Of a stretch of DNA of 35,324 nt, positions 5,945-34,130 are shown piece by piece. Position 1 is the first letter of the stretch, and the number at the start of each line of letters is the position of its first letter. The stretch spans positions 1-35,324 of IMG/VR virus record IMGVR_UViG_3300032069_000032; one strand, 5' to 3'. Made by a program: the position numbers and the translations under genes. Below the pieces are notes generated by a model. It had not been told where the DNA came from and did no database searches. It worked only from the letters and a program-made list of their open reading frames with translations. The DNA comes from a virus.

Positions 5945-6475
5945 TCATTTCCCCAAAGTTACTGCTACGGATAACATGATCCGCGAGTTTTGTTTTAAGA
6001 AATCTCCTACCTTGGCGTCTTTATATTCCTTCCATTCCACAGGTAGGGTAAGAGCAGGGCCGATAAAGATATTTGGGAATTGACTCCGGCGGACGTGTGT
6101 CCTGGCCCATGCAAAATCCCAAAGTCTTGCGGAGAGCGCGACGAAGTTTAAGTCCCCGGCGAGGAAAGCAGAATAGTCCTTGCTTCCGGCTTCGTACTTG
6201 CCGCCCGCCCCGAGTTCGACAGTATCTCTGTAATGGTCAATTATTTCCTTGCCCGCCGCGTCCTTGTCATAGGCAGCGTGAAAAGTCCAGACAGGAAGGA
6301 AGGCAGAATAGGCCGGTGCGGTATACGGCCCGATGAGTACCGCCGGACGCATTTCCTTTGCCTTGTTAGCGAGAAGTTGGCTGAAGGATTGGTCAATAGA
6401 TGGCGCAGGCAGGTCAATGCTTTGCGCCGACGCAACAGTCGCCACGAACATCAACAAGGCAAGTATCTTTGTCAT
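5945..6475 (-). CDS. Secreted protein of unknown function
   Basis: 176 residues from ATG 6475 with GGAGAC upstream. A classical Sec signal peptide is present: MTKILALLMFVATVASAQ, with probable cleavage after ASA near residue 17. The mature part is a mix of aromatic-rich strands (SAFLPVWTFHAAYDKDAAGK, PNIFIGPALTLPVEWKEY) and could be a small beta-rich envelope protein; alternating polar and apolar residues near the end recall outer-membrane barrels. It has no lipobox cysteine, so it is not an outer spanin of the lipoprotein type. It lies between fibre and lysis genes. An exported phage protein may alter the host surface, but the function is unknown. Confidence 0.65.
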   Translation of the reverse strand: MTKILALLMFVATVASAQSIDLPAPSIDQSFSQLLANKAKEMRPAVLIGPYTAPAYSAFLPVWTFHAAYDKDAAGKEIIDHYRDTVELGAGGKYEAGSKDYSAFLAGDLNFVALSARLWDFAWARTHVRRSQFPNIFIGPALTLPVEWKEYKDAKVGDFLKQNSRIMLSVAVTLGK

Positions 6476-7321: not shown

Positions 7322-9424
7322 CTAATAGTATTCATCAACAATAATGATACCCGAACCGCCAGCCCCCCCATCGAATGTCGCACCATCCCCGCCAGCTCCT
7401 CCGGTACCAACAACGTAAGCAAAAACTTGATTATTCGTCGGATTATTGATCGTTAATTCTGCATACTCTCCGCCACCACCACCTCCGCACACTGCCCCAG
7501 TGCCACCGGTCCCTATAGCACCGCCTCCACCGCCGCCAGTATTTGCTATCCCGGCGTTACCATTGGCCGCTGCACCGCCTGCAACTGGGAGTGCTCCAGG
7601 TCCTAGTAAGGAGGGTCCCCCACCGCCCTGCGTGATTCTGGAATTATATGCCGTCTCTGCTCCACCTTGTCCAGGGAATCCGGGAATACGCAAATTCGCT
7701 GTTCCCGACCCACCAGTCCCGCCAGCTCCTGCGGGCAAAGAATCCGCGCCACCCGCACCACTACCCCCGCCATGAACTTCTATCGAATTAAATGATGATG
7801 GATTTCCAGCTCCCCCGGCCACACAAGTATAATTCGCTGTAAGACCATTGCCCCCACCGCCACCTCCGACCATACGTATTTTTAATTGCCTAATTCCAGT
7901 CGGAGTCGTGTAATTTCCACTGCCGGAAGTAAATATCTGCTGAGTCGGCAATGTTGTACCTGTGATTGAATAAGCAGTAATGGTTCCCTTCACGTCAAGT
8001 GCTGTCCCAGGACTCGTCGTCCCAATCCCCACTTTCCCCGCCGAGTTCCATATCCCAGATGGGGGAAACATAGAGCCTGTGAAGGTGGTCCCAGCAACGC
8101 TGCTAAAAGTATTCCCCCCGCTAAAGACTTGGGTCGAGGCAAGGACAGCTCCTCCCTCTGTGCTCGGCAGGTTTGTCAGGTTGGACCCATCAACTGCCGG
8201 GAGCTTGGAATCTGCATCCAGTTTTACGAGTTGGCTTGCGCCATTAAATGAGTTTCCTTGAAGCGTAACAGATGAAGATATGGCAGAGAACGTCAACCCG
8301 TTTTTATGCAGGCTCGTTTCGTCGGCAACGTCTGTAGCGGTTGAATGAATGACTCCCGTAATTGCCGTGCCGTCAAGGGCGGGATAGGCTCCTCCCGCAG
8401 TCGTTTGAATAAGCTGAGACGCGCCGTTCATTCCCGGTGAGACATTGGCCGTGCTGATAGTTACATTTTCCGGCAAAGATCCGGCCTGGATGCCAGAAGC
8501 CGGGACTGTCGAAGCCGAGGCCGCATTCCCTGTGATGTTTATTCCCGCCGTCCCCGCGCTGATATTGGCCGGGGTCAGATTGGTGAGAGAGGCTCCGCTA
8601 ATGGCTCCAAGCGAGGCCACAGTAGGGCCAGGATATGTCCCAGTCAAGCCGCCGCTCGCCGCTCCTGTCGGTGGAGCCCCCCCCGCCGTTGTTGCATAGG
8701 TTGAGCTTGAAACATATCCCGACACGATGGATCCCAAGATCGAGGTCAGCCAGGCCGGCTGAGAATATGAGCCATTGGAATAGAGGCCATTTGTAACGCT
8801 GGCCGCGTTCCCTGTTACATCCGACGGCTGAGCGCAAGTCAGATTATTCATCCCGAGAATTTGTGGGAAATAAACGCCTGTACAGGTCCCGGTGCTAGTC
8901 TTGATAAGGCTAAGAGTTCCAGTGCTATTGCCGATAAGGTTTTCTCTGTCTGTAGCCCTTAAAATTTCAGATGTTAACGCAGACCCCGTACTATTTAAGG
9001 CTGAATAGATTGTTTCCATCGAGAGACTAAGTGTTGTTGTGGAGATATCATTTTTTGTCATGTAAGAAGCAAGTCCGGAAATCGAACTGCTTGTTAATCC
9101 AGTGATTCCGGCCCCGTCCCCAAATAATGCCGATGCATTTATGCTGCTTCCAGTTGTGATATAGCTATTTGGTCCGGTCATGTAAATGCTCGTGCCGGAT
9201 ATGAGGAGCGGGGCTGTGAAAGTGGTGGAGCTTTTGAATGTGTTGGCATCTACTTGGCTGGCCGTATTCGTCGAAATCTTGAAGAAATTCGCGTTGACCT
9301 TCTGGCCCCAGGTATAGCTCCCAATCGTCGGGACGGTCAATCCTCCAAGCCGGGAGGTCGTGTCATCAGCCCGCGCCATAGGCGCGAGCAATAGGCTCAG
9401 AAGCGCGGCGGTTAAGATTCTCAT
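7322..9424 (-). CDS. Signal-peptide-bearing tail fibre with glycine-rich tip
   Basis: 700 residues from ATG 9424, which has GGAG seven bases upstream; an ATG seven codons earlier (9445) overlaps the previous stop and would blunt the signal peptide. The start MRILTAALLSLLLAPMARA is a clear Sec signal peptide, odd for a virion part. Next come long Ser/Thr/Asn/Gly-rich repeats typical of trimeric fibres (FGDGAGITGLTSSSISGL, SLGAISGASLTNLTPANI), the common KVGIGTTSPGTALDVKG element, and from about residue 505 a polyglycine domain with IRQLKIRMVGGGGGG and many GG(A/T)GG runs, like glycine-rich receptor-binding tips. A segment is shared with the fibre-like protein at 30293-31555. It probably binds the host surface; the meaning of the signal peptide is open. 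Confidence 0.82.
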   Translation of the reverse strand: MRILTAALLSLLLAPMARADDTTSRLGGLTVPTIGSYTWGQKVNANFFKISTNTASQVDANTFKSSTTFTAPLLISGTSIYMTGPNSYITTGSSINASALFGDGAGITGLTSSSISGLASYMTKNDISTTTLSLSMETIYSALNSTGSALTSEILRATDRENLIGNSTGTLSLIKTSTGTCTGVYFPQILGMNNLTCAQPSDVTGNAASVTNGLYSNGSYSQPAWLTSILGSIVSGYVSSSTYATTAGGAPPTGAASGGLTGTYPGPTVASLGAISGASLTNLTPANISAGTAGINITGNAASASTVPASGIQAGSLPENVTISTANVSPGMNGASQLIQTTAGGAYPALDGTAITGVIHSTATDVADETSLHKNGLTFSAISSSVTLQGNSFNGASQLVKLDADSKLPAVDGSNLTNLPSTEGGAVLASTQVFSGGNTFSSVAGTTFTGSMFPPSGIWNSAGKVGIGTTSPGTALDVKGTITAYSITGTTLPTQQIFTSGSGNYTTPTGIRQLKIRMVGGGGGGNGLTANYTCVAGGAGNPSSFNSIEVHGGGSGAGGADSLPAGAGGTGGSGTANLRIPGFPGQGGAETAYNSRITQGGGGPSLLGPGALPVAGGAAANGNAGIANTGGGGGGAIGTGGTGAVCGGGGGGEYAELTINNPTNNQVFAYVVGTGGAGGDGATFDGGAGGSGIIIVDEYY

Positions 9425-9441: not shown

Positions 9442-12400
9442 TCATACCTTTGGAATTTTCATAAGCGTTAGATTCATGCTCGCTGAAGCATCCGACTCGG
9501 AAATCTCGACAGTCCTCGAATATCCGACTACATAATAATCCGTTGCAATCCCGTTTATTTCATTGACCACATTGACCCGATCGCCTGGTTGTAAATTCAC
9601 GCGCGGGGGGAAAATCTCGAAGCTGGGGATGTAGGATACCGGGTCCTTCTGGTTTGATATTATCTTCGCCGCAATGAAATCTGTTACACTTGAATCCCTG
9701 AAATAATTATTATTCACATCAGCGTGGCGTTTCCTGTGCCTCGCTATGCTCGCAGCGTCAGATGCAAGCGATTGATATGGAGTCTGCAAATTTGAAAAAG
9801 ACTTTCCGATCAGCCTAAGGTCCGTAATGGTGCCAATGCTTGTAACAGTAAGCGTTAGAATTGGCTTGGTCGGATGGATATAGGTTATCGCCGCTGACCC
9901 CGTTGCAGACCCCCAGGTGATAGCGATGCAAGAACCTCCGGCCATGTGTGAGGTGTCCATCCCTCCCGATACGACGCAGTTATATGTTACGGTCCCGGCT
10001 GAGACGATAAGAGGATTAGCCACGGAAACCTTATCCGGCGGTGTCCCTGTTATCGCTTGCCATTGGTCGTCTGTATTGGCCCCTGTCAGAACTAAAGGGG
10101 CCGCTGTTACGGCCACGTCGTTGATAATCGCAGAATCCCCGGCCAGATTATCGGCTATCTGCTCCTGCAAATCGCAAATTCCGTTTTGGTCTGTGAGGTA
10201 GAAATCTATTGACGGGGACCACTTTTGTTGGGCCGTTCCGGTAAACCATTCCGTAGAGAGTCTATATAAAATTGAGTTCCTTAATCCAACAAATGTCCTC
10301 ATATCCGGCGGTCCTGAATAAACATATTCCAGCCCGCTTGTGGATACACGGATTCTCTCGTATCTTTTCAGGTCTGATGGGTCCTGCGCCCCAGGTGTCG
10401 CAGATACCCATGGCCCCCAACTCATACCGTCATCGCTTGTTGAAACATCATAATTAATAGACCCCGACGAACAGAGAAGATTCACGGCCTGGAATATCCC
10501 GACAAATGTTATGGCGCCCCTATCTATCGTCGGAGAAATCCAAGAGCCGGAATCTGTAGTCAGGTATTCTGTCCCGGTCAATGCGGTTGAAAAATACGGA
10601 CCAATAAAACTGCCTACCTGCGGGGTCGTGTTGCTTCCGGAGTAGGAAAGATACGGAAAATTAGAATATGTGTTATCTGTGCATTGAAGGACAAAATCGT
10701 GCTGAGCATACAATGTAAATTTCCCGCTTATATCCCTCGCCAGAGTTATTGTCCCTCCATTATTTCCGGACGCCGACGCAAGAAGCGTCAATGATGGTGT
10801 GTTATCCATACGGTACAGATTGAAAGTAGCCCTCAATCCAACACCACCCTGAATGGCTGGGTGGCATTGAATACCAAGGACATAACCATTCCCCAAAGCT
10901 AGGCCCCCAGCCGTTGTCGCATTTGAGTCCATTAAATTAAAATAGACCATCGGCGCCCCTGTCCTGTTGTTCGGATTTAGCCAAATCCACCACACGCCAA
11001 CGGATGATGGTGTTCCCCATGCCATATAAATCGTCCCGGCCCCAGATGTAGATGTTGGCCTAAGTCCACCACCACTTAAATAATCCATCACCTCCCATGT
11101 CCCTGCGGCGACTATCCATTGAGGATGAGAATTAACTGTAGCCGAGCTTATCGGGCCAGGGGTTTCCAAATAAAATTCTTCAAGTATTTGCCCTGGGCCA
11201 TGAAGATTTGGGGCATTATTTACGGAATCGACATTATTCTGCGTCCCGGCTTCCCAGCCAATCTGTGTCGAGCAGGAATACTGCTGTGGAGTAGATGTGA
11301 GATAATACTGTAAGACAGCAGTCCCGTTTTCATCAAAATTAAACATTGCATCGCCCGCGGCCTGGACAAGCTCCTGCATCACAGTCAAAATAGAGATTTC
11401 GTAATAGAAAAAATAAGGCTCTGTGATATTCGTCGTCGCCAGGACCATCTCGTAATTGCTCACGCCGTTCCTGTTTAGGATATATCGGATGCAATCCGTG
11501 ATGTCAATAGCTGTTTTTAGTTTACAAGAATCCTGCTGGTCCATGAGGTGCTTGATTCCGTCGCGGGCGACAATCTCTGCGCTTGCGCTTCCTGCGGTTG
11601 GCGTGATGGAGTCGATGGAGCCGGTGAAGGTCCGTATCAATTCTTTTCCGACCGTTGTATAAAATCCTTCATTCACTTCAAGATTTATTCCCAGCAGGGC
11701 AAGGTCGGAATTGATGAAGCCTGCCGCAATCTCAGCCGCCGTCGGAGAGTAGGAAATTGAAAAGAACCTGTCCGAATTGTCAACGGTTAGGACTTCTTGC
11801 GTGGCAATGGGCTGGGATAGCTTGTAATCCTTTTTTCTGTCAGGCCCTTTTATGGAGCGCACCCGATCGGTAATGTCAACAAGGCGGTAGACTTCAAGCT
11901 CTACAAGTTGCGCCGGACCTGTGCTTGTCGTCGCATAAACTACAAGTCGTATTTTTGTAGACGTGATAGCTGCGAAATCGAAAACATCAAGACCGCCCGT
12001 CGGGCCGATGGGCCAACTGCTTGAACTTCCGCCATATGGTCCGAAACCATAGCCCCCGGTGCCATATCCACCTATGCCCGAAGGTGGCGTGTACTTGTCC
12101 ACTGTCCCCGCAAAATCAACCCAGGCCCCACCGTCCCAATACTGCAAGAGGTAGCTGGTCAACGGGTCGGCGGCGAGATTGTAGAGCTTTACACGATTAA
12201 AAATCCTTGACTGTCCGAAATTGATTTCAAGCCAAACATTACCTGTCCCATTCGGGCTGGCCGAGGACTTCCATGAGGATTTCCCGACGCCATCATCTGC
12301 CGTGGCCGCCGCGCCGATGTTTATTTCCGTGTGGTCCGAATTTATTGCGCCTTCCTTTGGATGGTCGGAGTCTGCATCTCCCGAGCTTGTGGCCGTGGAG

Positions 12401-12549
12401 CCCATAGCAGAGGCCGCATAATCAGGCAGAACCAGATAGACCAGATATGTCGGCATTGCGCTATCGGATTCTTGCGCCGCCTTAAATTCGGGACTGACAG
12501 TTATCGTATCATGCCCCCTGTAAGCTCCACCCCGAAACCTGCCCCACAT
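9442..12549 (-). CDS. Large tail-tip protein with discoidin-like domain
   Basis: 1035 residues. After a short N-terminus, residues ~60-215 look like an F5/8 type C (discoidin/CBM32-like) beta sandwich: HPKEGAINSDHTEINIG, a K-S-S-W-K motif, VWLEINFGQSRIFNRVKLYN and ITSTKIRLVVYATTSTGPAQ. From ~225 (DITDRVRSIKGPDRKKDYKL) comes a part resembling baseplate hub or tail-tip proteins that carry LTVDNSDRFF-type strands, and the C-terminus (VNLQPGDRVNVVNEINGIAT) is again hub-like. The middle is low in recognisable motifs and beta-rich. It overlaps the upstream gene by 41 bases. Likely role: central tail-tip component that may bind sugars on the cell surface. Confidence 0.78.
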   Translation of the reverse strand: MWGRFRGGAYRGHDTITVSPEFKAAQESDSAMPTYLVYLVLPDYAASAMGSTATSSGDADSDHPKEGAINSDHTEINIGAAATADDGVGKSSWKSSASPNGTGNVWLEINFGQSRIFNRVKLYNLAADPLTSYLLQYWDGGAWVDFAGTVDKYTPPSGIGGYGTGGYGFGPYGGSSSSWPIGPTGGLDVFDFAAITSTKIRLVVYATTSTGPAQLVELEVYRLVDITDRVRSIKGPDRKKDYKLSQPIATQEVLTVDNSDRFFSISYSPTAAEIAAGFINSDLALLGINLEVNEGFYTTVGKELIRTFTGSIDSITPTAGSASAEIVARDGIKHLMDQQDSCKLKTAIDITDCIRYILNRNGVSNYEMVLATTNITEPYFFYYEISILTVMQELVQAAGDAMFNFDENGTAVLQYYLTSTPQQYSCSTQIGWEAGTQNNVDSVNNAPNLHGPGQILEEFYLETPGPISSATVNSHPQWIVAAGTWEVMDYLSGGGLRPTSTSGAGTIYMAWGTPSSVGVWWIWLNPNNRTGAPMVYFNLMDSNATTAGGLALGNGYVLGIQCHPAIQGGVGLRATFNLYRMDNTPSLTLLASASGNNGGTITLARDISGKFTLYAQHDFVLQCTDNTYSNFPYLSYSGSNTTPQVGSFIGPYFSTALTGTEYLTTDSGSWISPTIDRGAITFVGIFQAVNLLCSSGSINYDVSTSDDGMSWGPWVSATPGAQDPSDLKRYERIRVSTSGLEYVYSGPPDMRTFVGLRNSILYRLSTEWFTGTAQQKWSPSIDFYLTDQNGICDLQEQIADNLAGDSAIINDVAVTAAPLVLTGANTDDQWQAITGTPPDKVSVANPLIVSAGTVTYNCVVSGGMDTSHMAGGSCIAITWGSATGSAAITYIHPTKPILTLTVTSIGTITDLRLIGKSFSNLQTPYQSLASDAASIARHRKRHADVNNNYFRDSSVTDFIAAKIISNQKDPVSYIPSFEIFPPRVNLQPGDRVNVVNEINGIATDYYVVGYSRTVEISESDASASMNLTLMKIPKV

Positions 12550-24003: not shown

Positions 24004-24461
24004 ATTTTCATTATTTCCAAAACAAAATTGTCGTCCTGATCCATGAATCCAGAAGAGAATTGCAGGCTCGAAAACTCGCGGCCCTTATCCCTGGCGTAGG
24101 CGTCCATCTTTTCGACGACGCCTTGAAGCATGGCAGGAATGTCAGGATTCGCCCGGATGAAGATTGACAGCTCGACGTTTTCCTTTCCAACATAATCGGC
24201 CAGATTTCTGGCAGACACAGAGATAAACCTTGACGGTAGAGACAAAGAGCTGAAAGATACATGCGCCCGGATTCTGTTCTCCGTCATAGTAACAGGGTCT
24301 ATGCTGATTCCGTCCATCCTCGCGCCCCTTGCGCTGGCCGTGTTAGCTATCTGCCACAACATCGCAATAAAAGCATTGGTCAGGTCCCGGTTCTCTATTA
24401 CTTTATCAAGAAGCCTGGTTGATGAGATTCCTAGCGCGGAAGCAGCGTCATTGTCTGGCAT
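24000..24461 (-). CDS. Unknown head-region protein
   Basis: 153 residues from ATG 24461, which overlaps the minor head gene stop (TAATG); a GTG four codons earlier is less likely. Start MPDNDAASALGISSTRLLDK, then mixed helix and strand, with FISVSARNLADYVGKENVEL and a C-terminal strand DNFVLEIMKI. No known family or motif is recognised. Gene order suggests a head assembly or minor virion protein. Confidence 0.62.
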   Translation of the reverse strand: MPDNDAASALGISSTRLLDKVIENRDLTNAFIAMLWQIANTASARGARMDGISIDPVTMTENRIRAHVSFSSLSLPSRFISVSARNLADYVGKENVELSIFIRANPDIPAMLQGVVEKMDAYARDKGREFSSLQFSSGFMDQDDNFVLEIMKI

Positions 24462-26584
24462 TATTTCGCCCACCCCACGATCGATATACCATGCAGCCCG
24501 GCCCAGGTGTCGAAATCTACGTGTAAATGCGCCTGCAAGTTCCCCTCTGCGTCCCTGATCGCCATAGCGTCCGGCACAAGCCCGCGAGCGTCCATATCAA
24601 GCGCGGCTTGTTTCTCATCATCTGTCCCATTCCTCAAAAGCTCGGCGAAGTCGCGGGGGACGATACGAGTAAAACATCTACACCCATAATGCACTGGTAT
24701 AGGCTCGGCCTCGTCGGCAGGTTTCCCGTCTTCTGCATCGCAATCAGGGCAATTATGGACTAAAATCCCATTGGCAAAATAGGAATGTGCGTCCTCTACG
24801 TCCAAATTAAATACTATTGACAATGAAGGATGTTTATAGTATTCTTTGGTATGATAAAACACATTAAACACGGAAGCCACGGCGGCATAACCCATGACAA
24901 TCAGACCTTCTACAAGTTTTCCAAACCGTCGAAGTGGGCTCAGCCACGCAAGGGGGCCTATCTTGTTTGTCCTACTTGCAAGAAAACCTTTTATTTGAAC
25001 CGGGCTAGAATCAAACGCGGTGAGCGTTTTTGTTCCACCACATGCCGGGCACTTTCCGCGCCCCGCGTAACTAAAGTCTGTACCGTGTGCTGCAAAGAAT
25101 TTACCGTACTTGCTTGCAAGGCTAATCGGTATTCCGCTTGTAGTCGCAAATGCAGGCAGTCCAGAATGAGGCGCATTATTTGTAAACGATGCGGTAAAGT
25201 TTTTCTTGATTCGGATAGACGCCCAGGATTCGAGCGTGTTCATTGCTCTGAGGAATGCCGAAGACCACCCCGCCATATTACTTGCTTGGTGTGTGGCGTC
25301 AAGATGCGTGTCGGCCCGTCGTCTAAGATTCGTTTCTGTTCCAAGTCTTGCTATCGCAAAAGCCAATCCGAAACGAGCCTTGAAGCAAAGGTCAGAGAAT
25401 CCTTGAATACACTTGGCGTAGAATTTTTGCAGGAGGCCAAAATTGGGAGATATTCTATTGACTTCCTTATCCCGAAACATCGCATTGCCTTGGAAGCTGA
25501 TGGAGATTATTGGCATCGCAACGAGGCCCGTGACTCCCGCAAAAATACTTACCTCGTTGCCCACGGTTTTATCGTGGTACGAATTCTGGAAAGTGTCTTG
25601 AACGCCGGAGATGCAACCTCGATAGTTCGCGCCCACTTGGCCGATTATATCCCCTACGTCAAGTGAATCAGCTCGAACCCACCCCCTGCCCTTCTCATAT
25701 ATCGGATGGCTTGCAGTCGTTATCAACTTAGCACCTTTTGTTTTTATCGTAACCATAGAGCCGCTGTATAATCGACACACGGTCCCGGTGATTCTTTTTC
25801 GACCAAGATGCGTTAAGATAACTTCGCCCAATTTAAGAGATTCGATAGCTTTATCTCCGTCGGGAGTTGATACCAACGTCCCGGCAGGAAAACATACAGC
25901 GCTATCTTCTAGCGTCTGAAAAATTTCCTCAGCTACCAGATCCTCATTTTCGCCTGCGACATCATCGCGGGCGTCTCTCTGCGCTTGCAGTATGTGCATG
26001 AATAGCATTGAGGAGAGTTTGTAGATCGGATCGAAGTTGTCAACCTTGGTGGCGTCAACCTCATCGGCGGCATCGGTGATAGAGCCTTCATGCAATGCCT
26101 CAAGTCTTAAATTCGTGTTCAAGTTCACGGCGTATGCCCTGAGCCATTCAGCCAATGCCTGCTCCCATCCAGTCTTGTAATCTTCCGGCCTTAGAGCCTC
26201 CCGCAATGCTTTACCGGGAATCCTGGGCTTGCGGCTTGGCGGCGTCAGCATATCCAACATCCAAACATGACGCAGTGCTTCGTGGCGGTAGGCATCTTTG
26301 ACTGTGTCGCGCATAAACCGCAAAATAGAATTGAAGAACCCTACAAGCTCATTCGTCGAAAAATGGTTTATTCTCTCAATCGTCATTCCTGCATTTGCCA
26401 GATTCCACGTTTCGCTGCCATGCGCGGCGTGGTACTCTGCCATGATAATCCCACGCAATGACTTCTTCGCGGCTTCCCATTCGCGCTTCAGGGCATCTAC
26501 ACAAGCGTCCTCATGCGCCCGGCCAGCCTTGCGCGTCTCGGCCTCTAGTCGGTTGAGTGTGCCGCTTTGGGTTGGATAGCTCAA
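24461..26584 (-). CDS. Minor head protein (SPP1 gp7/Mu gpF-like) with intein
   Basis: 707 residues before splicing, 326 after. The N-terminal extein (1-230) is helical (EALHEGSITDAADEVDATKV); the C-terminal extein begins CPDCDAEDG and continues to VHYGCRCFTRIVP, the standard C-x-x-C, D-G, H-x-x-C-R-C motif of the phage head morphogenesis family. The intein (231-611) interrupts exactly before CPDC. The family assists portal incorporation and DNA ejection. The gene starts by ATGA overlap with the sigma-like gene, and lies after portal, as usual for this family. Confidence 0.88.
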   Translation of the reverse strand: MSYPTQSGTLNRLEAETRKAGRAHEDACVDALKREWEAAKKSLRGIIMAEYHAAHGSETWNLANAGMTIERINHFSTNELVGFFNSILRFMRDTVKDAYRHEALRHVWMLDMLTPPSRKPRIPGKALREALRPEDYKTGWEQALAEWLRAYAVNLNTNLRLEALHEGSITDAADEVDATKVDNFDPIYKLSSMLFMHILQAQRDARDDVAGENEDLVAEEIFQTLEDSAVCFPAGTLVSTPDGDKAIESLKLGEVILTHLGRKRITGTVCRLYSGSMVTIKTKGAKLITTASHPIYEKGRGWVRADSLDVGDIIGQVGANYRGCISGVQDTFQNSYHDKTVGNEVSIFAGVTGLVAMPIISISFQGNAMFRDKEVNRISPNFGLLQKFYAKCIQGFSDLCFKARFGLAFAIARLGTETNLRRRADTHLDATHQASNMAGWSSAFLRAMNTLESWASIRIKKNFTASFTNNAPHSGLPAFATTSGIPISLASKYGKFFAAHGTDFSYAGRGKCPACGGTKTLTAFDSSPVQIKGFLASRTNKIGPLAWLSPLRRFGKLVEGLIVMGYAAVASVFNVFYHTKEYYKHPSLSIVFNLDVEDAHSYFANGILVHNCPDCDAEDGKPADEAEPIPVHYGCRCFTRIVPRDFAELLRNGTDDEKQAALDMDARGLVPDAMAIRDAEGNLQAHLHVDFDTWAGLHGISIVGWAK
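24817..24845 (+). promoter_or_regulatory. Candidate promoter for the antisense endonuclease
   Basis: TTGACA at 24817-24822, a 17-base spacer, TATTCT at 24840-24845 on the plus strand. The -35 is perfect and the -10 matches four of six. Transcription would start near 24852, next to the ATG at 24851 (codon 8 of the endonuclease frame), which would make the message leaderless. It lies within sequence that also encodes the intein C-terminal half. Confidence 0.45.
24830..25666 (+). CDS. Antisense zinc-finger Vsr/DUF559-like homing endonuclease
   Basis: 278 residues (271 if begun at ATG 24851), entirely inside the intein DNA but on the other strand. Four zinc modules C-x2-C...C-x3-C lie at residues 47-72, 84-108, 118-143 and 152-174. 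The C-terminal domain (~180-278) is Vsr/DUF559-like: SLEAKVRESLNTLGVEFLQE, then GRYSIDFLIPKHRIALEADG and YWH, giving E185, D211, E222 and H229, then RKNTYLVAHGFIVVRILES. Vsr-like nucleases of this kind are known as homing endonucleases associated with inteins. Codons align exactly with the intein codons (first base opposite third), so TTA, CTA and TCA are excluded; none of its 16 Leu and 22 Ser codons uses them. Confidence 0.87.
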   Translation: MFIVFFGMIKHIKHGSHGGITHDNQTFYKFSKPSKWAQPRKGAYLVCPTCKKTFYLNRARIKRGERFCSTTCRALSAPRVTKVCTVCCKEFTVLACKANRYSACSRKCRQSRMRRIICKRCGKVFLDSDRRPGFERVHCSEECRRPPRHITCLVCGVKMRVGPSSKIRFCSKSCYRKSQSETSLEAKVRESLNTLGVEFLQEAKIGRYSIDFLIPKHRIALEADGDYWHRNEARDSRKNTYLVAHGFIVVRILESVLNAGDATSIVRAHLADYIPYVK

Positions 26585-27198
26585 GAAAATCCTCGGAGTG
26601 GATTGCTGCGGGAGGGATGGCGCAATTTGCGGATAGCTCTGGCCTCGATCTGTCTTACCCGTTCTTTTGTAATCCTCAACTTCCTTCCTACCTGCCCCAA
26701 TGTTTGTGGCCGTTCTATTCCAATTCCAAAACGCATTTTAACTATTTTCTTTTCTCTCATCGTCAACAATTCTAAAGAGTTATGGACGGCAGACTCGCGT
26801 AATTCTCTCCGGCACAATTCTTCTGGTTCTGATTCATTCGCTATTTGTAAAACTTTCTGTCCTGATGGTAAACCAACAAAACTGATTCTATCCATCTCAA
26901 TAACTGCCAATTTTCTTTTATTGTTTGTGTACAGTTCCGGCGGGAAAATCCATTCGGGTAATCTCATAAAGTATTCGCATATTTTCATGGCCCAGGGGAA
27001 AAGCTCGCCATATCTTCTCCCTAGTTCTCTTCGATACTTCGTTGCGTATGGACATTCGCGTAAATTTATGGCGGAGTTAAGATATTGAAGGTTTATTCCT
27101 ATCGTTTCTGCTGCCTCCCTCTCGGTCGGGAACTGTTCATGCACTAACCGCCATAGCCGGTTATTTTTTACTCGGACTTCCATTCGTACTGACTTCAT
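26581..27198 (-). CDS. Sigma-70 region 4 protein, no region 2
   Basis: 205 residues. Residues ~139-203 are a textbook region 4: LLTMREKKIVKMRFGIG, then TLGQVGRKLRITKERVRQIE, then ARAIRKLRHPSRSNPLR. The N-terminus (TEREAAETIGINLQYLNSAI) looks like another HTH. The -10-binding region 2 is absent, so it cannot act as a complete sigma; it may bind -35 DNA or core polymerase and redirect transcription. It sits between portal and minor head genes, unusual for a regulator, and the preceding leader holds three hairpins, the last of which overlaps the ribosome binding site. ATG 27198 is chosen; ATG 27183 is an alternative. Confidence 0.8.
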   Translation of the reverse strand: MKSVRMEVRVKNNRLWRLVHEQFPTEREAAETIGINLQYLNSAINLRECPYATKYRRELGRRYGELFPWAMKICEYFMRLPEWIFPPELYTNNKRKLAVIEMDRISFVGLPSGQKVLQIANESEPEELCRRELRESAVHNSLELLTMREKKIVKMRFGIGIERPQTLGQVGRKLRITKERVRQIEARAIRKLRHPSRSNPLRGFS

Positions 27199-27597: not shown

Positions 27598-30288
27598 TTA
27601 CAGGGTTTTATGCTGAGATTTCAGCTTATTTTTTCCTGCGTGGATAGGATTTTCTTCTGTTGGTTCTAACATCGGCGGCGGCGCAGCCCCGAAGCGGCCC
27701 GCTGGCGGCGGCGCGCCAATATCAATAGGCGGATGCTTCTTCAAGTCTTTCTGCCCTGCGTCTTGCTCGTTGTCAAAATCATAATTATCACACTCAAGCT
27801 CTGCTGCGACCATCGTCCCAGCTCTGCGCTTGTTGATATATCCCATCTGCTCTGCCGTCGAGACATTGGCAATATAATCTTTGGCTGAATCCTTTGAGAC
27901 TGACGGGAAAATAACCTGCCAATCATCTTCATTGTATTCAATCTTGTTCTGCTCGCAAAAAGTCTCGATGATTGAATCAAGGAGGTCCTGGAAGTCCTGC
28001 TGTAGATCCTCGATAACTTTCGTGAATGGTTCGCTTCCGACGATTGCGGTCGCTCGGCTTCCTGACCCGGACGCCATAACATTGAAAAAGTCCTTGGGGA
28101 AGCCCATCGCTGTCGCAAGGAAAGCTAAAATCTCCTGGCTGATAGAGCTTTCTGTCCCGGTCTTTCCGGCGGCAGGAGCAAGGGCTTTGCGCTCCACGGC
28201 CTTGTTGTGAACGAAGATAGATGGAGCGACTGGAATGTAATTATATTTTGCGCCATGTGCGGCCACATCTCCTGCTGATCCGTCGATGGTATCGTCATAG
28301 ACAAAACACGCCTGCAACTGCTCAGATAATACCTGGGCCGTATAGGTATCCTTGAGCTTCTTGAGCCAGCCCAGGATTGAGAAGATGACCGGCCGACCAC
28401 GCTTCTCTTGGCTCGTGCAATTCGTTTTGATTCGGATAACTTGATCGGCGGGAATCTGCCGGACTATCCATTTCCCCGGTTTTGTTTCCTTGGCTTTTGG
28501 TACGCCAGGCACATCAATTCCCGAATATGTTTGGGTGGCGGTGTTATGAGTAAATACCCCAATCGCAAGAGCAAAATTATGATGTTTATCTACCGTTATG
28601 TCATAAACATCTTGCATCCCAACAAATTCAACCCTTAAAACTTTATGATTCACTATTGCGCTTTGATGGGCAAGTTCCTCATTTTGCTTTCTATTATGAG
28701 ATGCGCTTATAGAATCGCCCATTTTCTTTCGCATCCCTGGTCTGGCCCATTGCGCCTTAATTCTTTCACTTAATGCCTTCCGGGCTTCCGGATGTTCAAT
28801 ATAAAATTTTCTAATTCCCTCCCCTTGTTTCATGCGCCACGTGCTACCCCGCTTGGGGGCAGTAAAGCACCATGAAGATTCAGCCATAGTTCGTCTTGGT
28901 TGCCTTCGATGCCCTTCCATGTGTTCGGCATGGGTCAAAGTTTCGACATTCTCCGGTCTATTGTCAGTAAGTTTGTGATTCTTATGATGGACCGCATAAC
29001 CTTTTCGCGGTTTCCCTGCAACCATGTGATGCGTAAATTCCCAACCAGTTTTGGGCTGCCAAAGCTTTTCATACATGGTCTTCCGATAAAGAGGCATTAA
29101 GGAATCGCCCAATTTTAATTTCTCAGCCCATACATACTGGCCATCTCGCATAAGGAAAGGATGATCGAAAGAACAAGTCACGGATTCGCCAGAATCGAGA
29201 ATGACCTTGACACATCTCTTTTGCCCCGGCTGCTTCCATGTTTTGATTGCCCGACCTGGAACGATACGCCCCGTGTCGTGATCGTAGGAATATACCCAAT
29301 ACTCGCTACCCCGTTCTGCAAGTTCCCGTACTGTCGGATTTGTCCCGTCGAGCAAGGCGATGCGCGTATCTCCGTGCAAACATTGATACATCTGCTGCAA
29401 AAATATCGGCTTGTCTATAAACTCGTCCCACCCCTCGCAAACAATATCCATTATCGTCGAGGAATCTATGGATATCATGCGGGACTTGTCAATCGTCAAT
29501 TCTCCGTCCGTCAGATATTCACGCCCCCAAAATTTCCTGATTTTATGTTGAAGTTTATTGTGCTTTGCGAAGTCTCGCCACTTCTTTGCTATGCCCTCAT
29601 TCTTGCAGCGGATTTCAAAGCCCCGACCTAGGGCATACTGCGGCAAAATCTGAGCTATGCGGTTTGCTATCAGATTGTGATTGACCGCCTCGCGGGCAGC
29701 GGCCATGCCTGGGAAATAGGCATAGGGGATATTTTTGTAAAACGGCCCGCTAAACCACGGCGTAAACTCCGTGAACTGATTGGGGTCGAGCGTCGAATTG
29801 CTCCCCAAATCAGAATTGCTAATGTATGGCGCGGCGAATCCAGAACCGCCGCCAGAGAATCCACCGCCCCAATCCTCTTTGGTCTTTGTCTCAGACTCTT
29901 TTAACTTCTTGGAAAGTCCGGCCCAACATTCCTTGAGCCGTCCCATTGCCTTTTGATATGCTTCGTGTCCGTATATTCGAATAATGCGGTAGGGCCTATC
30001 ACCTTCCGCGCACTCCCGCAAGAGTTGGCCGCTTCGGTTGAACCTACCGCAAAATAATACTGCGTCGTGGACTTGCTCTTTACCGCTTTCGATTGCCCGC
30101 ATCGCCTCGGCGTAAATATCCGGGGCATGTTTCATGTCCTCATAGATTTGGTCTACATCGGGGATTTTAAACTCGATGGTCTCCATGGCAGGCTTAATCC
30201 TGGACTCTTTGGCGGGCATCCAGTCCCCCGGCGTCCCGCCCTTGCCACGGGCGCGGGACGTTTTGGGGGGGGCAGTAAAGCGTTTCAC
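27598..30288 (-). CDS. Portal protein with HNH intein
   Basis: 896 residues before splicing, 616 after. The exteins show portal features: GPFYKNIPYAYFPGMAAARE, EGIAKKWRDFAKHNKLQHKI, LTDGELTI, then ISQEILAFLATAMGFPKDFF, AIVGSEPFTKVIEDLQQDFQ and a long C-terminal helix part. The intein (303-582) interrupts at MYQ|T. The portal ring is the DNA channel at one capsid vertex. The GTG at 30288 is preferred for length but has no clear ribosome binding site; ATG 30219 (after GGGGGA) is a good alternative. It follows the fibre-like gene directly and precedes head genes. Confidence 0.87.
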   Translation of the reverse strand: MKRFTAPPKTSRARGKGGTPGDWMPAKESRIKPAMETIEFKIPDVDQIYEDMKHAPDIYAEAMRAIESGKEQVHDAVLFCGRFNRSGQLLRECAEGDRPYRIIRIYGHEAYQKAMGRLKECWAGLSKKLKESETKTKEDWGGGFSGGGSGFAAPYISNSDLGSNSTLDPNQFTEFTPWFSGPFYKNIPYAYFPGMAAAREAVNHNLIANRIAQILPQYALGRGFEIRCKNEGIAKKWRDFAKHNKLQHKIRKFWGREYLTDGELTIDKSRMISIDSSTIMDIVCEGWDEFIDKPIFLQQMYQCLHGDTRIALLDGTNPTVRELAERGSEYWVYSYDHDTGRIVPGRAIKTWKQPGQKRCVKVILDSGESVTCSFDHPFLMRDGQYVWAEKLKLGDSLMPLYRKTMYEKLWQPKTGWEFTHHMVAGKPRKGYAVHHKNHKLTDNRPENVETLTHAEHMEGHRRQPRRTMAESSWCFTAPKRGSTWRMKQGEGIRKFYIEHPEARKALSERIKAQWARPGMRKKMGDSISASHNRKQNEELAHQSAIVNHKVLRVEFVGMQDVYDITVDKHHNFALAIGVFTHNTATQTYSGIDVPGVPKAKETKPGKWIVRQIPADQVIRIKTNCTSQEKRGRPVIFSILGWLKKLKDTYTAQVLSEQLQACFVYDDTIDGSAGDVAAHGAKYNYIPVAPSIFVHNKAVERKALAPAAGKTGTESSISQEILAFLATAMGFPKDFFNVMASGSGSRATAIVGSEPFTKVIEDLQQDFQDLLDSIIETFCEQNKIEYNEDDWQVIFPSVSKDSAKDYIANVSTAEQMGYINKRRAGTMVAAELECDNYDFDNEQDAGQKDLKKHPPIDIGAPPPAGRFGAAPPPMLEPTEENPIHAGKNKLKSQHKTL
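28543..29382 (-). other. HNH-type intein in portal protein
   Basis: 280 residues, Cys303 to Asn582. Block A CLHGDTRIALLDG, block B SVTCSFDHPFLMRDGQYVW with the D-H-P histidine, block F VYDITVDKHHNFALAIG, block G FTHN, +1 Thr. Between them is an HNH endonuclease: YAVHHKNHKLTDNRPENVET followed by LTHAEHMEGH, then a basic DNA-binding stretch (RKALSERIKAQWARPGMRKK). In contrast to the head-gene intein, this endonuclease is in the same frame as the splicing domain. Confidence 0.92.
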
Positions 30289-30292
30289 AATC

Positions 30293-31555
30293 TCAATGGA
30301 TGTGGGTTGTCTTATCGCCGCACTCAGCCCAACTCGCCGTTACGGTTTGCGTTGATACCCCGATGGCGTCAACCGTGCAATCCGTGCAATAGCGAAGCTC
30401 TCCGATAGCTGTCGGAGTATCAAGTGCCAAGGCGGCTAGGTCCCCGGATTTTAAACCGGCGGCAGTTGTGGCATAGTTCACTGAGGCATCAGCCAGGCCG
30501 ATTACATTCACACTGGAAACAGCCAGCGCAGAATCGGCAACTCCGGCAGTGTCAGCTTTAGCGTGTAGATCGAGCTTTGCTCCAAGCTCCACATCGAGGC
30601 CGCCAACAATGGGGCTTGAGATTGCGACCAACCATGTTGGATTCGAATAGGACCCACTGGAATACAATCCGTTACTCACTGTCCCAGCATTTATGTTCGG
30701 GTATGAGCCAGTTGCAATCGAAGAACAAACAACAGAACCTCCAAGATTGCCAGCCGCTATATTCGCAGCTGTGAGGTTGGTTAAGCTTGCCCCACTAATC
30801 GCACCCAAGGATGCGACGGAAGGATTTGGGAGACTGCCGCTTAGATTCCCCCCGAGGGTTAGCCCTTCAACGGCAGCCGTTGCCCTTGCATCGGTATAAT
30901 ACAGATTCCCGGACTCAGGGATGTCGCTTGTATTCAACGACACACTGCCGACTTTAGAATTGACTGATATCACACCTGAGCCCGGAGATTTCTCCCATAT
31001 TGCGCCGTTATAAATAATCCAGTCGCCGATGAGATACGCAATGACACCGTGGCCGGTGTCCGTCGATCCTGCGACGCTTGCCCGAAAAAAATCTCCATTT
31101 TCATATGTCGCGTCTCCGTCGGTAAGATGTGGGTTATTGGTCGTGGCGTTCCATGCGCCTTGATAAACCATTGCGCTGCTCGGCAGTTGGGCTACTGGAA
31201 TCTTTGAAGATGCGTCCAGACTTGCCACGCCATTCGCTGCGCCTCTGGCCGTTGTGAGAATGTTCAATGAAGCCGCGCCTGTCAATGTGCTGATGATGCT
31301 CGGCGCGGAAATGACTCCGGCTGAAGTTATCGTCGAAACATTCGGCAAAGTTCCAAAAACGCTTTGACCAGATACCTTCAGAGTCGTGAGAAGCGGCGAT
31401 CCGTGTACAATGACGGCCGCCCCCAAGTCTCCATCCAAAACATTCTCGGCCGGGAAACACTCGTTACTGACTTTATACCCCGTGCAAGAACTGGCCCGCG
31501 CACCGACGGCAATACCGACAAGCAACACAGCAAGAATCGAATAGATTTTTTTCAT
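30293..31555 (-). CDS. Secreted fibre-like protein, moron-like position
   Basis: 420 residues, AAGGAGGG upstream. A Sec signal peptide (MKKIYSILAVLLVGIAVGAR, cleavage near ARA-S) is followed by fibre-type repeats (GVASLDASSKIPVAQLPSSA, GVISVNSKVGSVSLNTSDIP, SLGAISGASLTNLTAANIAA) and a C-terminal PTAIGELRYCTDCTVDAIGV element common at fibre ends. It shares the SLGAISGASLTNLT and NGLYS-(N/S)-GSYS segments with the tail fibre at 7322-9424. It stands between terminase and portal, away from tail genes, and has its own promoter. It may coat the infected cell, or be a spare fibre part. Confidence 0.78.
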   Translation of the reverse strand: MKKIYSILAVLLVGIAVGARASSCTGYKVSNECFPAENVLDGDLGAAVIVHGSPLLTTLKVSGQSVFGTLPNVSTITSAGVISAPSIISTLTGAASLNILTTARGAANGVASLDASSKIPVAQLPSSAMVYQGAWNATTNNPHLTDGDATYENGDFFRASVAGSTDTGHGVIAYLIGDWIIYNGAIWEKSPGSGVISVNSKVGSVSLNTSDIPESGNLYYTDARATAAVEGLTLGGNLSGSLPNPSVASLGAISGASLTNLTAANIAAGNLGGSVVCSSIATGSYPNINAGTVSNGLYSSGSYSNPTWLVAISSPIVGGLDVELGAKLDLHAKADTAGVADSALAVSSVNVIGLADASVNYATTAAGLKSGDLAALALDTPTAIGELRYCTDCTVDAIGVSTQTVTASWAECGDKTTHIH

Positions 31556-31585
31556 CGGCCCTCCTTGCGGTCGAACACTTCGTAA

Positions 31586-31614
31586 AGTCTACAACGAAAA
31601 TAAAGTTTTGTCAA
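31586..31614 (-). promoter_or_regulatory. Promoter of secreted fibre-like gene
   Basis: TTGACA at 31609-31614, 17 bases, TAGACT at 31586-31591. The terminase TGA stop is bases 2-4 of TTGACA. A 24-base leader with AAGGAGGG leads to ATG 31555. Confidence 0.8.
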
Positions 31615-32861
31615 GCCCATTCTGGCTGCCTCTCCAAGTGCCCGCCCCAACTACTCGCGGGCTGACGCCCCTTCGCGCTACGATAAAGCATGACAGCCAA
31701 GGCATGAGCACATACGCAATCATCGTGCATCCCCTCGGGGGCGGAATAGGCGACGTGATTCCTGGAATAGACATACTCGAAGCTCTCCATTTCCAATCGG
31801 TGCGGCCCCTCAAGTATCGTCGTGCGCCCCTGCTGGACTGCGACGGCCAAGCCTTCCATGAGTTGCTGCTTGCTCTGCGAACTAAATTTATAGCCCTCGA
31901 AATTGGGCCGCGATTCGCTAAGGCCCATGCTGCCACCGCGCTGTAGGTCTTCGAGTACGGGATCCCCGACCCCGCTTGAATCCACGAGAGTCGGCGTCGA
32001 GCCACAGACCTCGCGTATCCTTGCTTTAGTTTCTGTCCAAGGTTTTTGGAACCTGTCAAAGAAGCATACCGCCCCATTCGAATCTAGACCGATAATCACA
32101 GTCCAATCGACGCTCTTGGCTAGATCCACGCCGTAACATACGGCAGGCTCCGAAGATATCCCTGCAACACAAGAGGCGATATGTTGGAGCCCAAAAGGAT
32201 TATCACCGTCATCCGAAGGCTCGGCAAGGAATAGCTCACGAAAGACCTGCTCTGGCAGCTGGCGTCTGGCGTCCTCGATTTCTTTAGCTGAAAGGATACC
32301 AGCCGCGACCGCATCGGCGGCAATAATCTTCGAATAGTGCATATCCGGCTCACCAGCCTCGGCCTTGCGGGCCAAGAGGTAGGCCCAATTCTTTCGACCC
32401 TTGACGTTGCCGATGATACGCACACGGCCCTGTGTCTTGGTCAGGGTGGAACGTATCGCGTGCCAGGCTTCCTCGCGTAAGCGACTGGCCTCATCTATGA
32501 CCGCAGCGTAAACGTCCTCTCCGTATAGATTGTCCGGCTTCTCCCCGGACTTGAACCATATGGTCGCGCCATTGGGCAGGCGTATGCTAAGCTTTGATTC
32601 ATTAGCTTTGCGATAACTAACAACTATCGAATCCCGCATCCTGCGGTAGGCAATCTCTGCCTGCGGATAAACCGGGGCTATCCACCAATAGTTTCTGTTT
32701 CCACCTCCGCCCGTTATCGCCTGCTCGCCTAGCCAAACGATGCAGCCGTGGGTCTTTCCGCTTTTGGTTGAAGCCTCAATGACGCAGTAGCGGGCTTCGT
32801 GGAAGATATTTCCAAGCTGGTAGGACGTTAGCTTGGGCCGCTTATATTTAACCTTTCGCAT
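31611..32861 (-). CDS. terL: Terminase large subunit
   Basis: 416 residues. ATPase: Walker A EASTKSGKTHG (~29-39) and Walker B YAAVIDEASR (~118-127). Nuclease: YGVDLAKSVDWTVIIG (D246), LVDSSGVGDPV (D294), MHDDCVCAHAL (D380/381), the three acidic metal ligands of the RNase H-like domain. It cuts concatemers and pumps DNA into the prohead through the portal. It overlaps the small subunit by 14 bases. The short length is at the lower end of the family. Confidence 0.95.
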   Translation of the reverse strand: MRKVKYKRPKLTSYQLGNIFHEARYCVIEASTKSGKTHGCIVWLGEQAITGGGGNRNYWWIAPVYPQAEIAYRRMRDSIVVSYRKANESKLSIRLPNGATIWFKSGEKPDNLYGEDVYAAVIDEASRLREEAWHAIRSTLTKTQGRVRIIGNVKGRKNWAYLLARKAEAGEPDMHYSKIIAADAVAAGILSAKEIEDARRQLPEQVFRELFLAEPSDDGDNPFGLQHIASCVAGISSEPAVCYGVDLAKSVDWTVIIGLDSNGAVCFFDRFQKPWTETKARIREVCGSTPTLVDSSGVGDPVLEDLQRGGSMGLSESRPNFEGYKFSSQSKQQLMEGLAVAVQQGRTTILEGPHRLEMESFEYVYSRNHVAYSAPEGMHDDCVCAHALAVMLYRSAKGRQPASSWGGHLERQPEWA

Positions 32862-33247: not shown

Positions 33248-33276
33248 ATTATAATTCAATCCGACCGTTCTGTCAA
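33248..33276 (-). promoter_or_regulatory. Consensus sigma-70 promoter of terminase genes (distal)
   Basis: TTGACA at 33271-33276, 17 bases, TATAAT at 33248-33253: a full consensus match. The TGA stop of the upstream gene is bases 2-4 of the -35 box. It is 97 bases upstream of the proximal promoter and gives a tandem pair. Between the two there is a small hairpin (CCATC/GATGG) but no terminator. Confidence 0.92.
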
Positions 33277-34130
33277 GCCCCTCTCTTTTCCCCGTCGTTC
33301 CACCGTTCAAGTCGGGCCTCTTCCATCAGCTTTTGTTGCAACTTTTTCCCAGCATCTCCTTCAGCGTCCCCCCCGGACTTTGATTTGCCGTTGCCGTTAT
33401 TTTTTTCCCAAGTCCGGATGGCTGCTTGCCAGTCCTTCATTCTCACCTTCCCCAGCATCCATCCACGGGCAGCGTAGTAATCCAGGAAGCCTTGAGGGTC
33501 TATGTTATTCTTTCGCTCCTGGCAGTAGTTCTGCACCTGTTCGAAGCTGGGAGGGATATTCGAACTCGCCCGAATTCCTTCATGGCCTTGGGGAGCTTCC
33601 TTCCCTATTCCTTTCCCTTCCCTTCCCTTCCCTATTCCCTTCCTAACGTCCTTGGTACTACTTCCATCATACTTTGGTACTACTTCAGTACTACTTCCAT
33701 CATACTTTGGTACTACTTCAGTACTACTTCCATCATACTTTGGTACTACTTTAGTACTACTTCCATCATACTTTGGTACTACTTCAGTATTACTTTCATC
33801 ATGCTTCGGTATAATAGATTCTTGCTCTTGGGGCGATGGTCTTTGATGTTTTTCCCACGAACGTATCTGCAAGTATTTTTTCCCCTCGATTTCATAGCGC
33901 ATGATAAATTTGGGGCAAAGTTCCGATATCAAGCGTTCGCCGTCTATTTCTTTTTTCTTCAAATCGTATGGAAGGATTTGCACTTCGAGTTGGCGGGGCT
34001 TATCTTCCAATCTGCCGGCCTTATCAGCGTGACACCATAAACCAACAAAAAACAATCTGGCCGCGAATCCCAGATCGCCGATTTCTTGGTCCGTAAAGAA
34101 AGATGGTTTGATTGTTCGTATTCGAGCCAT
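33273..34130 (-). CDS. Replication initiator/organizer-like protein
   Basis: 285 residues. The N-terminal ~100 (MARIRTIKPSFFTDQEIGDL, then GFAARLFFVGLWCHADKAGR and QIRSWEKHQRP) is the winged-helix type found at the start of phage replisome organizers. Residues 108-162 are five 11-residue repeats of PKYDGSST-(E/K)-VV; next a G/K-rich linker, then a C-terminal helical domain (FEQVQNYCQERKNNIDPQGF, then LDYYAARGWMLG and W-Q-A-A-I-R-T-W) of the kind that loads helicase. It is followed by terminase and preceded by DnaB, so it probably loads the helicase at the phage origin. The interleaved RNA at 34146-34256 lies in its leader. Confidence 0.78.
   Translation of the reverse strand: MARIRTIKPSFFTDQEIGDLGFAARLFFVGLWCHADKAGRLEDKPRQLEVQILPYDLKKKEIDGERLISELCPKFIMRYEIEGKKYLQIRSWEKHQRPSPQEQESIIPKHDESNTEVVPKYDGSSTKVVPKYDGSSTEVVPKYDGSSTEVVPKYDGSSTKDVRKGIGKGREGKGIGKEAPQGHEGIRASSNIPPSFEQVQNYCQERKNNIDPQGFLDYYAARGWMLGKVRMKDWQAAIRTWEKNNGNGKSKSGGDAEGDAGKKLQQKLMEEARLERWNDGEKRGA
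33645..33809 (-). repeat. Five 33-bp tandem repeats in replication gene
   Basis: Five in-frame copies encoding PKHDESNTEVV, PKYDGSSTKVV, PKYDGSSTEVV twice and PKYDGSSTKDV. The inner copies differ by very few bases. Such repeats could bind a protein, or serve as iterons for an origin inside the initiator gene, as in lambda O. Confidence 0.92.

Follow-up and report, generated by a model that had tools for sequence, protein, structure and literature searches.

Fibre-like proteins encoded in a 35,324-nucleotide viral sequence (IMG/VR record IMGVR_UViG_3300032069_000032, linear and possibly incomplete; hereafter the window) are very probably exported by the Sec pathway. One of them is encoded inside the packaging cluster, between the genes for the terminase large subunit (TerL) and the portal. 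Predicted Sec signals are found on fibre-type proteins of isolated soil phages, of the window phage and of its relatives. Particle assembly in tailed phages is generally regarded as a wholly cytoplasmic process. We tentatively propose, at somewhat less than an even chance, that several unrelated tailed-phage lineages make fibres that would be Sec-exported, disulfide-bonded and periplasmic, with virion completion delayed until lysis and taking place beyond the inner membrane, and that the gene between terL and portal would be a dedicated short member of this set.

This gene (positions 30293–31555, minus strand, as are all window features given below with coordinates as its neighbours or parts) encodes 420 amino acids from an ATG start preceded by a strong Shine-Dalgarno sequence (AAGGAGG, 31560–31566). 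Upstream lies terL (31611–32861; phrog_2, E 6.7e-29), and the intein-containing portal gene (27598–30288; phrog_10963, E 7.2e-13; Intein_splicing, E 3.6e-17) starts 4 nt past its end. Its GC content does not deviate (52.7% versus 50.7% overall). Signal peptides were called with a rule-based tripartite test, in which a cut-off of 5 passes 13 of 980 open reading frames of at least 100 amino acids in the loci of terL relatives; the 420-residue protein scores 6.86. Its predicted signal peptide (residues 1–21; 31493–31555), MKKIYSILAVLLVGIAVGARA↓SS, where the arrow marks the cut (ARA↓SS) and SSCTGY follows, combines a K-rich n-region, a short h-region and an A-R-A cleavage motif. This n/h/c organization with its AxA motif is conserved in the same-position orthologues, found in loci L139, L164 (two copies), L167 and L176; the cut itself is retained in L139 (GWA↓ST) and L164 (ARA↓TC and ARA↓SC).

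The predicted mature protein opens with a cysteine motif, SCTGYKVSNECFPAENVLDGDLGAAV (residues 22–53; 31397–31492), in which C-T-G-Y...C...AE is invariant in four homologues. A tail-fibre module follows (residues 54–212; 30920–31396), matching the tail-protein families phrog_31460 (E 3.6e-31) and phrog_13892 (E 3e-29) and the Atu_ph03 tail fibre (E 9e-26). Towards the C-terminus, the motif GELRYCTDCTVDAIGVSTQTVTASWAE (residues 380–416; 30308–30418) contains a C..C pair invariant in 6/6 proteins of the same class (class A, below); the YCTDC motif lies in this terminus, to which that of an exported 868-aa fibre of contig G007 is related. Six cysteines are present in total. No lipobox was detected by rule, no barrel or autotransporter domain by Pfam, and neither Pfam nor PHROGs matched a catalytic domain. 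AlphaFold2 models were unusable (mean pLDDT 38.8 for class A and 35.5 for class B). The 420-aa frame, the signal score and the fibre-module matches bear out the initial annotation, which had claimed a signal-peptide-bearing, fibre-like gene within the packaging cluster.

It had also claimed that segments of this protein match the tail fibre encoded at 7322–9424 (minus strand; 700 aa from the second ATG), itself signal-bearing, and both points were confirmed. In a two-sequence comparison, the two proteins share 49% identity over 75 aa (E 4e-11), the common segment covering residues 236–319 of the shorter protein (30599–30850), with a further shared stretch of SNGLYSSGSYSNPTWLVAI against TNGLYSNGSYSQPAWLTSI. 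The rule-based test predicts the signal peptide MRILTAALLSLLLAPMARA↓DD for the tail fibre (9368–9424), and signal-bearing homologues of it occur in contigs G001 and G003. Since the two genes have no DNA-level similarity, a recent duplication of fibre DNA was ruled out. The neighbouring gene (9442–12549, minus strand) encodes a tail-tip-like protein of 1035 aa with an F5/8 type C domain (PF00754, E 4.2e-07) and without a signal peptide, a possible receptor binder that would be kept in the cytoplasm.

The distribution of the exported gene follows the portal. Some 60 IMG/VR loci share the window's terL with at least 49% identity, and almost none of these relatives, among the matches listed, has a signal-peptide gene adjoining terL. 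In a portal tree, ten sequences including the window form a clade with support 100/99. One or two signal-peptide genes lie between terL and portal in 8/8 readable clade members (the window, L139, L164 with two in tandem, L167, L169, L172, L175 with two, and L176), against 0/4 readable outgroups (L170, L171, L173 and L178). Signal predictions, whose failure in relatives the initial annotation had named as a refutation, thus recur in every readable clade relative, which supports Sec export. The bodies behind the signals fall into two classes: class A, with cysteine motifs and fibre-like (window, L139, L164, L167 and L176), and class B, compact and about 165–180 aa long (L169, L172 and L175). A domain search of viral contigs with class B returned only two loci, both already known, and Pfam and PHROGs gave almost no matches for the relatives' exported proteins.

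Within the portal clade, terL belongs to several families that show hardly any blastp similarity to one another, or none. The portals of the window and L164 are sisters (75% identity) and the two exported genes are homologous, yet their terLs give no blastp match; the exported gene thus goes with the portal and not with terL, and the sequences indicate exchange of terL between dissimilar families next to an exported gene that was retained. Different terL families likewise surround closely related portals in L164/G002, L172 and L176/G004, which suggests repeated terL replacement. The window portal has no match among cultured phages, and a host search with the portal alignment and the fibre N-terminus alignment against genome contigs found no relative.

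Signal peptides are concentrated in fibre genes. In seven contigs (G001, G002, G003, G004, G005, G007 and G011), signal-peptide genes occupy the fibre slot or its vicinity, with as many as five consecutive ones in G003, and fibre-slot genes of the unrelated contig L197 are also signal-bearing. On four contigs, signals were called for 11/18 genes in two predefined slots versus 2/105 of all other genes (Fisher p 1.4e-9, a descriptive value because the slots, set by gene position, were fixed after the first examples had been seen); of the seven slot genes without a call, several were missed through errors in gene start or reading frame. After the signal comes an ordinary fibre N-terminus, P..GS..WG.KIN.D, a motif that Tunturi_4 gp112 carries without a signal.

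The same pattern appears in two plaque-forming phages of Tunturiibacter (Acidobacteriota). Signal-bearing proteins are gp12, gp13, gp14, gp16 and gp17 in Tunturi_2 and gp113, gp114 and, with its start re-called upstream, gp111 in Tunturi_4. For gp111, an in-frame TTG start (L206 2871–3228, Tunturi_4 record 80076–80433) gives a signal like that of gp113, so that the annotated gene is probably 119 codons too short. Tunturi_3, which has the same host as Tunturi_2, shows no signal peptides on its fibres. The term "signal peptide" appears nowhere in the text of the paper describing these isolates, which reports no virion proteomics (PMC11924767).

Cysteine parity provides an independent sign of an oxidizing compartment and so backs export. 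Mature cysteine counts are even in 21/25 exported proteins versus 26/68 controls (p 7.6e-5), a contrast that is indicative because the controls, non-exported proteins of the structural operon, were greedily gene-called and may include spurious ORFs. With the isolates added the count is 27/32; after collapsing families it is 18/22 (p 3.6e-4 versus controls), and with the least favourable class A representative p is 1.4e-3. Such parity, as an indicative result, is what would be expected for disulfide pairing in an oxidizing compartment outside the cytoplasm.

As no lipobox, barrel or autotransporter was found, the periplasm is the simplest reading of where the exported fibres would go. Beyond export, we infer cleavage, a periplasmic location and docking on virions. 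The short tail-fibre-type protein would be produced alongside head and portal proteins and would cross the inner membrane through the Sec machinery; after trimming by signal peptidase it would fold in the periplasm and form disulfide bonds there. The main tail fibre would take the same route. The exported fibres would wait there while heads and tails assemble in the cytoplasm; holin and endolysin would then mix the compartments at lysis, and the fibres would dock on the particles. We hold periplasmic folding followed by docking at lysis to be close to an even prospect. It is favoured because whole fibre cassettes are predicted to be exported, including those of plaque-forming isolates. The main argument against docking is the unsignalled 1035-aa tail-tip protein, which could be the true receptor binder and would free the exported proteins for another role. 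The signal-free fibres of Tunturi_3 and the lack of a precedent in the open-access literature searched also weigh against it.

One such role, unlikely in our estimate, is that of a surface or periplasmic exclusion factor, an exported fibre-like protein that masks or competes for the receptor and blocks superinfection or the re-adsorption of progeny to debris. The Sec signal and the segments shared with the tail fibre, through which the same target could be bound, fit such a role, as does the presence, beside the lysis genes of G002 and G003, of a short signal-bearing protein whose C-terminus is barrel-like. Phage-encoded envelope proteins such as T5 Llp, phi80 Cor and lambda Lom are established exclusion factors. 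Like them, the window protein is phage-encoded and predicted to be exported; they are, however, envelope-directed lipoproteins or outer-membrane proteins, whereas the window protein is fibre-like and shows no anchor. The gene is moreover placed for expression with the portal and not as an early or lysogenic gene, and exclusion leaves the export of the main fibres and of tailspike-like proteins unexplained. Of the three functions offered in the initial annotation, exclusion and decoys find no specific support, the analysis having turned up neither an outer-membrane anchor nor a lipobox or any part of an autotransporter; finishing assembly beyond the inner membrane is the candidate function that agrees best with the data, given that the fibre-slot class as a whole bears signals, also in two plaque-forming isolates.

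Still less probable is that the exported proteins are lectins or depolymerases that would loosen or digest surface polysaccharide before lysis and so aid release and spread. Tunturi_2 gp14, annotated as a pectin lyase, has a signal peptide and 20 cysteines, and fibres are often of beta-helix or carbohydrate-binding type. Against this, the window protein matches no catalytic domain in Pfam or PHROGs, and, if the host is diderm, export by Sec alone would bring it no further than the periplasm.

The position of the gene also recalls a moron, that is, cargo that serves the lysogen and is transcribed from a promoter of its own. A promoter, TTGACA-N17-TAGACT (31586–31614, minus strand; 10/12 match), has its -35 hexamer (31614–31609) overlapping the terL TGA (31613–31611), and 0/300 control 120-mers score as high. 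Like morons, the gene thus has a promoter in front and sits between two conserved structural genes, and it is absent from most other terL relatives, among the matches listed. Promoters scoring 10–11/12 stand 27–42 nt upstream of the start in the window, L164, L167, L175 and L176; none of this kind precedes the exported genes of L139, L169 and L172. At least five other such promoters occur on the window's minus strand (34291, 33276, 33179, 23797 and 23405). Unlike a moron, the gene has no terminator-like site in the 4-nt gap to the portal and runs on into it, so that it is most simply a late-operon member whose promoter also serves the portal; it has an ordinary GC content, is kept at its site throughout the readable clade across terL swaps, and no integrase was seen among the early genes tested. 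The promoter fused to the terminase stop, as initially annotated, is present but does not make the gene an isolated transcription unit. A stand-alone moron, which we regard as improbable, was rejected on the lack of a terminator and the retention across the clade.

That the hydrophobic N-termini are mis-called starts or membrane anchors of ordinary cytoplasmic fibres is very improbable: although the calls rest on a rule-based test and some starts were re-called (Tunturi_4 gp111 and genes of G004 and G003), the AxA motif and short h-regions are conserved across differing bodies, and the slot enrichment and even cysteine parity argue against it.

The window protein matches 112 cultured-phage records, mainly phages of Gordonia, Rhizobium, Pseudomonas and Agrobacterium, the best matches running through the fibre module at residues 54–212. 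The short tail fibre of Atu_ph03 (ASV44589), related Autographiviridae and Gordonia minor tail proteins share this module at 34–50% identity, and in Atu_ph03 and Xanthomonas phage SB4 the module gene likewise follows terL at a distance of a few genes. Four cultured module proteins that were checked have no signal and 0, 0, 4 and 1 cysteines, whereas the window protein has a signal, a cysteine-containing N-terminus and six cysteines. The Tunturi phages are unrelated to the window phage, and no body similarity to the window protein was seen; yet their tail fibre, tail and virion structural proteins (gp12–gp17 in Tunturi_2; gp111, gp113 and gp114 in Tunturi_4) carry predicted Sec signals and many, mostly even, cysteines, as in the window. 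The gene between terL and portal encodes a glycosyltransferase in Tunturi_4 and a protein without a signal in Tunturi_2, as opposed to the exported fibre-like protein of the window. Docking of exported fibres by a tailed phage was not found in the open-access literature searched; reports on extracellular contractile injection systems (eCIS) that combine "N-terminal signal peptide" with tail fibres deal with signals for loading cargo or contain the words in their reference lists, and do not concern Sec signals on fibres.

Export signals on fibre cassettes, together with even cysteines, imply that parts of the virion mature beyond the inner membrane or else that exported look-alikes of the fibres do a different job. 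Both outcomes are unexpected, and the isolates Tunturi 1, 2 and 4 make the question testable. Heterologous expression of such fibres may need oxidizing conditions and, for annotation, the start of one or more isolate fibres, Tunturi_4 gp111 among them, is probably placed too far downstream.

Further features of the window were observed. A signal-peptide protein of 176 aa without cysteines (5945–6475) adjoins the lysis genes; mutually homologous proteins with barrel-like C-termini are encoded at the same place in G002 (29676–30197) and G003 (26105–26662). The portal intein spans about residues 306–582 of the product of 27598–30288 (Intein_splicing, E 3.6e-17; HNH_3, E 1.2e-6), and at this site the L139, L164 and L175 portals carry no insertion. 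A second intein/Hint-like insertion lies in a head-morphogenesis-type gene (24461–26584; PT-HINT, E 6.7e-7; Intein_splicing, E 7e-8), next to a sigma-70 region 4 protein (26581–27198; E 1.1e-14) encoded within the structural operon. Finally, a replication-type protein (33273–34130) contains about five copies of a VVPKYDGSST[E/K]-like tandem unit.
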